Of a stretch of DNA of 64,000 nt, positions 54,618 to 56,702 are shown piece by piece. Origin of the DNA: an uncultured Kordiimonas sp. GTDB taxonomy: Bacteria; Pseudomonadota; Alphaproteobacteria; Sphingomonadales; Kordiimonadaceae. Under the pieces are notes generated by a model. It did no database searches, was not told the origin of the DNA, and saw only the letters and a list, made by a program, of their open reading frames with translations. The stretch is from assembly GCA_947503625.1 (NCBI GenBank), contig CANNEK010000001.1, positions 372,001-436,000 on the forward strand. The letters run 5' to 3'. How positions within the stretch are numbered: position 1 is the stretch's first letter; every line of letters starts with the position of its first letter. A program made the translations under genes and the position numbers.

Positions 54618-55202
54618 CTACACTGGAGAAGGTCTTATGCCTGTCTTGGACGCATAGAATGTACGGATGGATGCAATGTCTTCTTCCATATTGCCTGTGG
54701 GATAAAACACCATGCCAAAGCCAAGTTCTTTTCTTGGTGCGTCAAGGTATGCCAATACAATTGGCACCCCTGCCCCTTCAGCAATGCGGTAAAAGCCTGT
54801 TTTCCACTTCGTGACTTCGGAGCGTGTACCTTCTGGTGCCAGCGCCAGAATAAGCGATTGATTGTGCTTGAATAGATTAATGGCCTCGTCCACGAGTGCT
54901 GCTGCCCCACCACCGCCTCTATTTACAGGAATCCCACCAAGCCACTTGAACAACCAACCGAAAGGTGGCTTGAACAGGCCGTGTTTTCCGAGAAACCTTA
55001 CCTTGAGTTTGCAAAGGCCAACAACCGACATAAAAACAGGAAAATCCCAGTTGCTGGTGTGAGGCGCGGCAATGACAACGTATTTCCCAAGATCTGGCGG
55101 CATTCCAACCACTTTCCAGCGACCAGCTTTCAGGGTCATCCGGCCCAATAGCGATAATAGTAACCCAAAAAAACGGTTATCGTATATTAGTGAAGTCACC
55201 AT
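54618..55202 (-). CDS. lysophospholipid acyltransferase (PlsC-like)
   Basis: A 194-residue glycerophosphate acyltransferase-fold protein. The catalytic H-x4-D appears as APHTSNWDF and the glycerophosphate-binding motif as LAPEGTRSEV. GGIPVNRGGGG lies between them. A short hydrophobic segment near the N-terminus may anchor it in the membrane. It would transfer an acyl chain to a lysophospholipid or other polar lipid. ATG 55202 has GGAGGG upstream. The candidate small RNA or leader element ends only 56 bases before this start on the same strand, so attenuation of this gene is possible. Confidence 0.85.
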   Translation of the reverse strand: MVTSLIYDNRFFGLLLSLLGRMTLKAGRWKVVGMPPDLGKYVVIAAPHTSNWDFPVFMSVVGLCKLKVRFLGKHGLFKPPFGWLFKWLGGIPVNRGGGGAAALVDEAINLFKHNQSLILALAPEGTRSEVTKWKTGFYRIAEGAGVPIVLAYLDAPRKELGFGMVFYPTGNMEEDIASIRTFYASKTGIRPSPV

Positions 55203-55257
55203 GTCCCTCCGGCTAGAGCAGGCGACGCTAACCGCACAGCGGGAAAGGTGCAAGATG

Positions 55258-55375
55258 CAAAAAGACGGACGAGCATTGCTCGTCCGTCGGAAGTAATTCC
55301 AATCCCCGCTCAGGCAAAACGGGTTTTTGGCATTTAGAAACTGTTCAAGTCGCCTCAGGCAAAAGCGTCAGGAAC
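55258..55375 (-). ncRNA. candidate structured small RNA or leader with twin hairpins of identical loop
   Basis: On the - strand, hairpin 1 (55375-55343) has outer stem GTTC/GAAC, an internal loop, inner stem CGC/GCG and loop TTTTGCCTGAG. Hairpin 2 (55330-55299) has outer stem CCAA/TTGG, inner stem CCCG/CGGG and exactly the same 11-base loop. A 10-base linker then leads to an 11-bp terminator and T5. An extended -10 box ends 7 bases before hairpin 1. The unit is about 118 bases and accounts for almost every position. It could be a free small RNA between the DUF2336 and acyltransferase genes or a terminator-controlled leader of the acyltransferase gene. I do not recognise it as a known RNA family; expression is untested. 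Confidence 0.55.
55259..55288 (-). terminator. strong intrinsic terminator on the - strand
   Basis: GACGGACGAGC and GCTCGTCCGTC form a perfect 11-bp GC-rich stem with a 3-base loop (55264-55288), followed on the - strand by five T. There is no T-run on the + strand. It ends the candidate small RNA and would also stop read-through from the DUF2336 gene, or act as an attenuator 56 bases before the acyltransferase. Confidence 0.8.
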
Positions 55376-55381
55376 ATCTAT

Positions 55382-55390
55382 AGTATAGCA
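55382..55390 (-). promoter_or_regulatory. extended -10 element for the candidate RNA
   Basis: The - strand reads TGC-TATACT, an extended -10 box (TGnTATAAT-like), with AT-rich sequence upstream but no good -35. Start of transcription about 7 bases later coincides with the first base of hairpin 1. Confidence 0.4.
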
Positions 55391-55531
55391 ATCAGAGTGC
55401 CAAAACTTTTATATTTATATTTCAATGACTTAATATTCAGGCTTTTTAAAATGTCTCATAGTGAAACATTTAGACCGTCCCAACTTGATACAGATTTCAA
55501 TCTGGAACACTCAGTGGACCAACAGTCTTGC

Positions 55532-56500
55532 TCAATAGACAAGTCTCTCATAGGAGATCAACAGAACTCCAATAACCGATTTTGAAAAACCGACAGAGTC
55601 AAGCAGACGGGCCAGGACTTTTTTTTCCCTGGTGGCAACTAATGGCTCAATTTTATCATAGGGTTTGTGGAGTAGCACTGCGATTGACATGGTAAACAAA
55701 CGAAGATTGTTGTTCTGCAGATACGTCAGCAAGACATCCGATCCAAGATGATGTCGTGCATGAAGCTGAGACAAGTAATTTTCAACCTCTGGCAAGGGTG
55801 ATACTTCCAGCGCTCTCGAAAAAACCTGCCTGTTTGCCAGTGACACCAGATAGGAAGAATAGTCATTCGAGATACCGTACTTTTCGATAAGCATTTTACC
55901 AAAAGACTGAGACACTTTGAAAACCAGATCTTCAATAACCTGTGTGGGCAGGTCTGCGCGTGCAGCCAGCTTTTCCATCAAACCCATATTTTCAGGAAAA
56001 CGCTCTATTACCTTGTCAAAAGTGCGCCTCGATAAATCTGCGCTGTCGTTGACTGCGAGTTTGTCGACGGCAACAAGGCATCCAACGTCGGATACCGCGA
56101 AACTGACCGCCTCTGACAAGCCGTTACGCATGGCGATCGCTTCCTGATGGCTATCGCCACAACTCCGGACGATCTCTTCCAGAAAGTCATCATCAATGGC
56201 CTGTGAAGCCACGAGGAAGGGCATAGATACCTGTTCAACGTCCCTGGCTATAGTTGCCAGTAAGTCTTCGGGCAAAAAAATGCAGGCTCTAAGCTCTTTC
56301 GACAAAGCTTCTCTAACAGAGATCGCTACATCCTCTGCCAGCACTCTGGCCAATTCAAGCGCGGCTTTCTGGTCAGCACCATCTTCCGAAGACGATAAAA
56401 TGTGCCCAACTTTGCGCGCAATTTCCGCCCTTGCGCTTTGTTCTAAATTTTTTAGGTCTTCAACATCTTTCACAGCAAATGTGTCTCTCAAAACGACCAT
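55532..56500 (-). CDS. DUF2336 domain protein of unknown function
   Basis: A 322-residue, almost entirely helical acidic protein matching the DUF2336 family, which is largely limited to alphaproteobacteria. Repeated helix pairs (for example ALELARVLAEDVAISVREAL and DVEQVSMPFLVASQAIDDDF) look like HEAT-type repeats, which suggests a protein-binding scaffold. No catalytic motif, signal peptide or membrane segment is seen. The ATG at 56500 is preferred over a TTG two codons earlier; neither has a good ribosome site. It stands alone, and the function is unknown. Confidence 0.8.
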   Translation of the reverse strand: MVVLRDTFAVKDVEDLKNLEQSARAEIARKVGHILSSSEDGADQKAALELARVLAEDVAISVREALSKELRACIFLPEDLLATIARDVEQVSMPFLVASQAIDDDFLEEIVRSCGDSHQEAIAMRNGLSEAVSFAVSDVGCLVAVDKLAVNDSADLSRRTFDKVIERFPENMGLMEKLAARADLPTQVIEDLVFKVSQSFGKMLIEKYGISNDYSSYLVSLANRQVFSRALEVSPLPEVENYLSQLHARHHLGSDVLLTYLQNNNLRLFTMSIAVLLHKPYDKIEPLVATREKKVLARLLDSVGFSKSVIGVLLISYERLVY

Positions 56501-56702
56501 ACTCAAAACAGTTCATCAGATATTCGGACCAAACAACGACACTTTCAAATTAGTTTTACATGTTTTTCTTCGCAGAATAGTGTCATCAATCGTTGATTTG
56601 GCTTAATTACCAAACAGATAGATCGACAGAATACGACGAACTGTTTAACAAATTGTTTCGTGTACGACAGATGACCAAAAGCAAATCACGTGGTAATCAG
56701 AA

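Follow-up and report, generated by a model that had tools for sequence, protein, structure and literature searches.

Our results show that the DNA studied here, a window of 64,000 nucleotides from a Kordiimonas genome, contains a putative small RNA unit in which two hairpins with different stems present the same loop. We call it sRNA-A. It is predicted to be a sigma-54-dependent small RNA of about 118 nt (55259–55376, minus strand), and it is almost certainly a conserved structured RNA. Within the full explanation that we favor, sRNA-A would be a stand-alone, trans-acting small RNA, which we propose with moderate confidence from the DNA sequence.

One loop on two changing stems

The 11-base loop TTTTGCCTGAG occurs twice on the minus strand, at 55364–55354 and at 55319–55309, once in each hairpin. 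Hairpin 1 (55342–55376, minus strand) has the outer stem TGTTC/GAACA, and hairpin 2 (55299–55330, minus strand) the inner stem CCCG/CGGG. They are followed by an intrinsic terminator (55259–55288, minus strand) of the form GACGGACGAGC-AAT-GCTCGTCCGTC-TTTTT, a perfect 11-bp stem with an AAT loop and a T5 tail. A first, sequence-only reading of this DNA had described two different hairpins with one loop, the terminator, and a distance of 56 bases from the terminator to the ATG of an acyltransferase gene (55202), and it was correct in all three. It had also called such a repeat rare by chance. Indeed, the window has exactly two matches to TTTTGCCTGAG where 0.08 are expected, and none of 100 shuffles had two or more. 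The 4.07-Mb genome has the loop at seven places, and only the pair at 55364 and 55319 sits together. When 55258–55380 is folded with RNAfold, as had been suggested for the minus strand, the two hairpins and the terminator are predicted at −48.5 kcal/mol (z = −6.3), and none of 200 shuffles was equally stable. The length of about 118 nt given in the same reading agrees with the sigma-54 start predicted near 55376. Rfam 15 gave no match at gathering level in the window; at E ≤ 10 it gave three matches in 55150–55550, all far under their gathering scores.

The RNA is found throughout the genus and in much of the family. By BLAST, sRNA-A was seen in four of 59 genomes besides its own (which is among the 59), and the DNA that follows the orthologue of the neighboring DUF2336 gene contains it in 13 of 19 genus genomes. 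A covariance model (R1) was built from an alignment (A3) of 12 of these 13; the copy in genome G008 was omitted as longer. The window's copy, itself in the training set, matches this model with E 1.1e-21. Across the 29 family genomes (Kordiimonas and kin), the model finds convincing copies in 26, namely in 19/19 from the genus and in 7/10 from other genera. The weakest accepted E value, in one genome, is 5.8e-6, and promoters were inspected too. Genome G025 gave no match to the model. The matches in G024 (E 0.006) and G022 (E 0.99) are weak, have no promoter and were rejected, and further weak second matches, for example at G013:C1:1315074 (E 3.9e-4), were set aside. A second model (R2, alignment A5) used 24 of the 26 copies, as a cut at 1e-8 against reverse-strand terminator matches also removed G023 and G008. 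With strict filters, R2 was run on 385 genomes of the class, a sample in which the own genome was the only family member, and gave five weak matches outside that genome (E 2e-4 to 6e-3). None of these loci has the loop octamer TTGCCTGA, and we therefore take them as chance. A search of plasmids gave nothing.

In a MAFFT alignment of 12 sequences, 25 of 28 stem pairs have changed on both sides, and 89% of cells are paired; shuffles give 72.5%, and slid controls do not exceed 49%. By helix, the changes on both sides affect 9/11 pairs of helix 1 (hairpin 1), 7/7 of helix 2 (hairpin 2) and 9/10 of helix 3 (terminator). For 24 model-fitted copies, an alignment that leans to structure, the values are 28 of 35 pairs and 91.7% of cells. 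The loops hardly change. The octamer TTGCCTGA is exact in 25/26 first loops and 25/26 second loops (50/52 together), and the two exceptions are single substitutions. Changing stems under a constant loop was the pattern on which the sequence-only reading was built, and these counts support it strongly: the homologues returned by the covariance-model search that it had proposed keep the two identical loops, and their stems covary.

The linker varies more freely in places. The G008 copy (L031:1183-1328) has an expanded linker with repeated TTTTGAGTA-like units, and GAGTA is recurrent in the linker of several copies.

Promoter, candidate activator and a second twin-loop RNA

The sRNA-A promoter is a sigma-54 promoter, of which we are highly confident. 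The −24/−12 element TGGCACTCTGATTGC lies at 55388–55402 (minus strand), and the box T(G/T)G(C/T)A(C/T)-N7-GC precedes all 26 copies (0.085 expected from shuffles). The stricter form TGGYAY-N6-TGC precedes 25 of 26 (0.005 expected). Some letters in such counts are imposed by the search pattern itself; among those it leaves free, G−25 and C−23 are present in 25/26 and T−14 in 26/26. GG and GC stand ten bases apart, as in the −24/−12 promoters of sigma-54 sRNA genes, and the distance from the end of the box to the start of the model is 8–13 nt (10 nt in 19/26). The genome encodes RpoN (L109:48-1289, PF04552 and PF04963). The promoter had originally been read as an extended −10 box (TGCTATACT). 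This assignment does not hold across the relatives, which keep the sigma-54 box instead; when up to one mismatch is allowed, 6/26 homologues have a TGnTATAAT-like box. Since the window does have TGCTATACT, its own copy may have a second, sigma-70 start.

Three putative activator sites lie upstream on the minus strand: TGTTTCACTATGAGACA (55452–55468), an exact consensus site, TGTATCAAGTTGGGACG (55476–55492) with one mismatch, and the weaker, activator-like TGTTCCAGATTGAAATC (55493–55509) with two. Palindromes of the form TGTNNCA-N3-TGNNACA with at most one mismatch number 44 in the 26 promoters, where shuffles lead us to expect 0.33. At this level 25/26 promoters have a site, and at two mismatches all 26 do. 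The letters narrow to about TGTNYCA-N3-TGRNACA. Exact sites of this type also occur without a recognised sRNA, at L128, L136 (G027), L137 (G020), L129 (G028), L130 (G021) and L132–L135 (G023); other regulon members are a possible explanation.

The exact sequence TGTYYCANNNTGRRACA is found at only two places in the genome, the sRNA-A promoter and C3:155868. At the second, another sigma-54 box leads into another twin-loop small RNA, sRNA-B (G000:C3:155936-156100, that is L113:5937-6101), with the loop GCTGCCA. A model built from three copies has matches in 16/29 family genomes, all within the genus; the match in G009 lies within an apparent coding region and was dropped. Two GCTGCCA loops are present in 14 copies, and the divergent copy of G004 has one CTGCCA. 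In the 15 copies, 16 of 19 modelled pairs have changed on both sides and 95% are paired (76% in shuffles), with one of five covariation measures, further pair types, reached by 61 of 500 shuffles. The second hairpin lies outside the model. With a simple stem finder it is seen in most copies, although not in all of them as a clean stem. On its own, the sRNA-B fold is no better than shuffles in the own genome (z = −1.2), and z is −3.0 in G010 and −3.4 in G007. The sRNA-B promoters have TGGCA in 15/15 (in two, TTGA replaces TTGC) and 25 activator sites at up to one mismatch, where 0.12 are expected. Hence the same plan and control region serve two RNAs without evident sequence kinship, whose loops share only UGCC. 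Its terminator loop is C-rich, and an MBL-fold-like frame (named by eye) lies downstream. In two genomes the sRNA-A loop motif TTTGCCTGAG lies between the two sRNA-B hairpins (G006, L152; G014, L154).

Which protein could bind the upstream sites? Nine genes in the genome have a full sigma-54 activator domain. Models above cut-off name FlbD, NtrC, PspF and NtrX, and two further proteins match a LuxO model best, below cut-off. Our candidate is an orphan NtrC-type response regulator (G000:C1:1309052-1310503), flanked by a PNT/alanine-dehydrogenase-like (pntA-like) and an Asp/Glu-racemase-like (murI-like) gene. Orthologues with 57–81% identity occur in 24 further sRNA-A genomes so that, among the matches listed, the regulator is present in 25/26 genomes with sRNA-A and in 0/3 without. 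The places inspected in G002, G022, G024 and G025 reach 34–37% identity, and the orthologues in the other genomes score above the cut of the list of matches. G002, a 76% complete genome, has sRNA-A, and the candidate was not found in it. The three genomes without sRNA-A belong to other genera, and hence the co-occurrence may be a matter of shared ancestry.

All 25 candidate genes were also scored for sites in front of them. The best sites score 11.3–24.1; shuffles put the 99% level at 12.0, which 18 of them exceed. The commonest best site is TGTCCTGAAATGATACA; the site is an exact consensus in G023 and one mismatch from TGTYYCANNNTGRRACA in G008. The own genome's gene has the lowest value, 11.3, below the 99% level, and within 13 kb around it there is no site within two mismatches of TGTYYCANNNTGRRACA. 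For comparison, the 99% level for the orphan LuxO-like paralogue is 11.2; 6/29 of its genes have a site that exceeds it, and two of these sites (15.5 and 15.0) outscore most of those before the candidate genes. From this correlative, sequence-based link we consider the orphan NtrC-type regulator the probable activator of sRNA-A.

We had at first favored the LuxO-like proteins because of their matches to the LuxO model, and now think them less likely. The operon of the H-NOX-linked one is preceded by TTGCAGAATGCAA. The orphan one is present in 29/29 genomes and therefore shows no co-occurrence with sRNA-A. Another of the nine lies beside GTTCGAAACCGTACA repeats, and the ninth, L103, may be a further alternative to our candidate. 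The LuxO-like genes have features of their own. TGT(T/C)GC-type palindromes precede about 11/29 genes of the orphan protein (L109:6121-7533, G000:C2). The other protein stands in one row with H-NOX (haem-NO-binding) and a hybrid kinase with Hpt (L108:6320-10579, G000:C2), and this row adjoins an exosortase/polysaccharide cluster in which TTGCA-type sites and sigma-54-like boxes occur.

Possible modes of action

One could argue that the RNA belongs to one of its neighbors. The sequence-only reading had put a leader, controlling the downstream acyltransferase gene by termination, on an equal footing with a loop-recognising RNA. The gene (54618–55202, minus strand; PF01553, E 8.7e-16 when the ORF is taken from 55253) does begin very close to the terminator, and it lies downstream in the same direction in 20/26 loci. 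Nevertheless, a leader should have a constant downstream gene, and the locus DNA of G003, G006, G014, G019, G020 and G027 has no acyltransferase match; in these six a convergent FAD-oxidase gene follows the RNA. The predicted minimum-energy fold also shows no competing antiterminator. Because six of 26 loci have no acyltransferase gene beside the RNA, we regard a leader as very unlikely. Only part of the earlier proposal is left, a loop-recognising RNA, which the constant loop on changing stems supports. Less likely still is a fragment derived from the 3′-UTR of the DUF2336 mRNA, with no gene of its own. The DUF2336 gene (55532–56506, minus strand; PF10098, E 4.8e-40) is upstream within the locus in 24/26, and in 13 the RNA follows it by about 140–290 bases. 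However, in 11 loci it is 1.0–1.4 kb away and in two it is absent from the locus, an aminotransferase-like frame (by eye) comes first in six distant-or-absent loci inspected, and every copy of sRNA-A has its own sigma-54 box. Transcription of sRNA-A is a prediction, which would leave room for a repeat that arose by chance next to an ordinary terminator and has no function; given 26 genomes, covariation and near-invariant loops, this is extremely improbable.

In our preferred mechanism, sigma-54 RNA polymerase would start at about 55376, an enhancer-binding protein would bind the upstream TGTYYCA-N3-TGRRACA-like sites, and the transcript would fold into two hairpins, both showing UUGCCUGA, and stop at the terminator. 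These steps are supported by the sequence. The orphan NtrC-type regulator would be the activator and would also drive sRNA-B (loop GCUGCCA). What follows is the least certain part: each sRNA-A loop would be a pairing seed for mRNAs with CUCAGGCAA near their start codons, and each molecule, with its loop doubled, would have two opportunities to pair or could bind bivalently. That the loops act by base pairing rather than by protein binding seems to us the better bet: sRNA-A and sRNA-B have their control region and plan in common but differ in the loop, which fits separate mRNA targets better than a single protein partner.

The main rival is a protein-sequestering (decoy) RNA, whose two UUGCCUGA loops would titrate an RNA-binding protein. 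One octamer shown twice in hairpin loops, on stems that change freely, would fit such a role, as would the presence of TTTGCCTGAG between sRNA-B hairpins in G006 and G014 and a candidate mRNA leader in G003 with TGCCTGA twice. CsrB and RsmZ titrate CsrA in this way, through repeated GGA motifs in hairpin loops. In sRNA-A, however, 50/52 loops carry UUGCCUGA, an octamer without GGA, and sRNA-B has another loop under the same control sites, with only UGCC in common. We consider a decoy rather unlikely, at a probability that still deserves attention.

If base pairing is correct, targets should be recognisable. The 9-base loop complement CTCAGGCAA has 52, 55, 45 and 62 matches in G000 (the own genome), G006, G014 and G003, and the pattern read backwards has 7, 10, 4 and 7. 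The search covered this one 9-mer in the four genomes; leaving the sRNAs aside, 52/55 places were inspected in G006, 60/62 in G003, 14/45 in G014 and 5/50 in G000, and five groups were aligned between genomes. The best candidate is an orthologous TPR/SPOR-domain gene (PF14559, PF05036), the one group in which the match is non-coding and at a position suited to sRNA action. In G006, G003 and G014, CTCAGGCAA lies 4 nt before its ATG and is kept while the flanks diverge; upstream of it AGGCAAA recurs, at distances of 28, 28 and 63 nt. The leaders of G003 and G014 also contain a GCCTGAG by which the site could be masked. The predicted interaction (pairing minus opening) is −7.6, −5.9 and −5.7 kcal/mol in G006, G003 and G014, compared to shuffled means of 2.0, 0.9 and 0.7; among 30 shuffles for G003, the lowest value was −6.9. 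Coding sites in prfB give similar values (−3.6 to −6.7), so that this gene does not stand out by energy. By a hand estimate, a 9-mer this frequent should have about 0.3 start-region matches per genome. We therefore name the TPR/SPOR-domain mRNA as a tentative and rather doubtful target, predicted from sequence. The groups set aside are prfB codons, helicase coding DNA, one weakly aligned pair, and the antisense strand of a gene that looks, by eye, like a sulfite oxidase.

A different kind of target was suggested by the glycine riboswitch. Its aptamer (RF00504) carries CUCAGGCAAAA at L226:1568-1483 (G003, before gcvT) and L266:340-430 (G006), and UUUUGCCUGAG from the sRNA-A loop is a perfect complement of this conserved aptamer segment. 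If the aptamer letters are as in G003 and G006, loop 1 is complementary to the region over 12 bases in 14/26 genomes. In this reading sRNA-A would be a trans-acting antisense RNA to the ligand-binding core, besides the start-codon sites of other mRNAs; the loop would be fixed because its target cannot change, and a sigma-54 signal would override glycine sensing. We consider this improbable, and the complementarity may well be chance. According to PMC13104608, the Neisseria sRNAs NgncR_162/163 and the glycine riboswitch act on the same gcvT mRNA segment; as described there the sRNAs target the gcvT ribosome-binding site, whereas the sRNA-A loop is complementary only to the aptamer itself.

Relation to known sigma-54 small RNAs

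Repeated loops are known from Listeria LhrC and rhizobial alpha-r14, which have several hairpins with the same unpaired motif in C-rich anti-Shine-Dalgarno loops, and NrsZ of Pseudomonas has repeated stem-loop modules. The loop motif of sRNA-A is repeated in the same manner as in LhrC and alpha-r14 and differs from theirs in being UUGCCUGA. NrsZ, according to a review (PMC8395346), is sigma-54/NtrC-dependent and appears to act on a structure with the rhlA ribosome-binding site. Compared by this description it is, like sRNA-A, an sRNA of the sigma-54/NtrC type, and unlike it is about 226 nt long and processed.

Two other systems are closer in their control. For the Qrr sRNAs of Vibrio, PMC10162802 gives TTGCAWWWTGCAA as the site of LuxO and TTCTCANNNTGMDWN as that of SypG. 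These are sigma-54 sRNAs with NtrC-type activators and upstream sites, and a CA-N3-TG core is common to the LuxO, SypG and sRNA-A sites. Unlike Qrr, sRNA-A has no Rfam match, has two like-looped hairpins, and has half-sites of TGTNYCA rather than TTGCA: where TTGCA-N3-TGCAA would be expected, position 5 in the 69 sites that have up to one mismatch in the sRNA-A and sRNA-B promoters is T in 36, C in 32 and G in 1. GlmY and GlmZ of enterobacteria are likewise a pair of sRNAs whose sigma-54 promoters share a single activator, GlrR (PMC3844500), and GlmY acts as a decoy (PMC7073468), the protein being RapZ. Here the difference is that sRNA-A has no match in Rfam and no evident sequence kinship with sRNA-B.

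Hence, sigma-54-driven sRNAs under NtrC-type activators are an already known kind. What is new to us is the lineage, together with the doubled loop and a sister RNA that carries a different one. Our literature search, with subscription journals mostly outside its scope, found no description of sRNA-A or of any Kordiimonas sRNA, and a search with the loop sequence gave, among the matches listed, only unrelated work.

Most of a regulatory module can be read from the DNA in this case: the binding sites, the sigma-54 promoter, two unrelated sRNAs and a candidate activator. It raises the question of why one recognition loop is presented twice. If our explanation is right, this module would be an alphaproteobacterial case beside the sigma-54 sRNA circuits of Qrr and GlmY/GlmZ.
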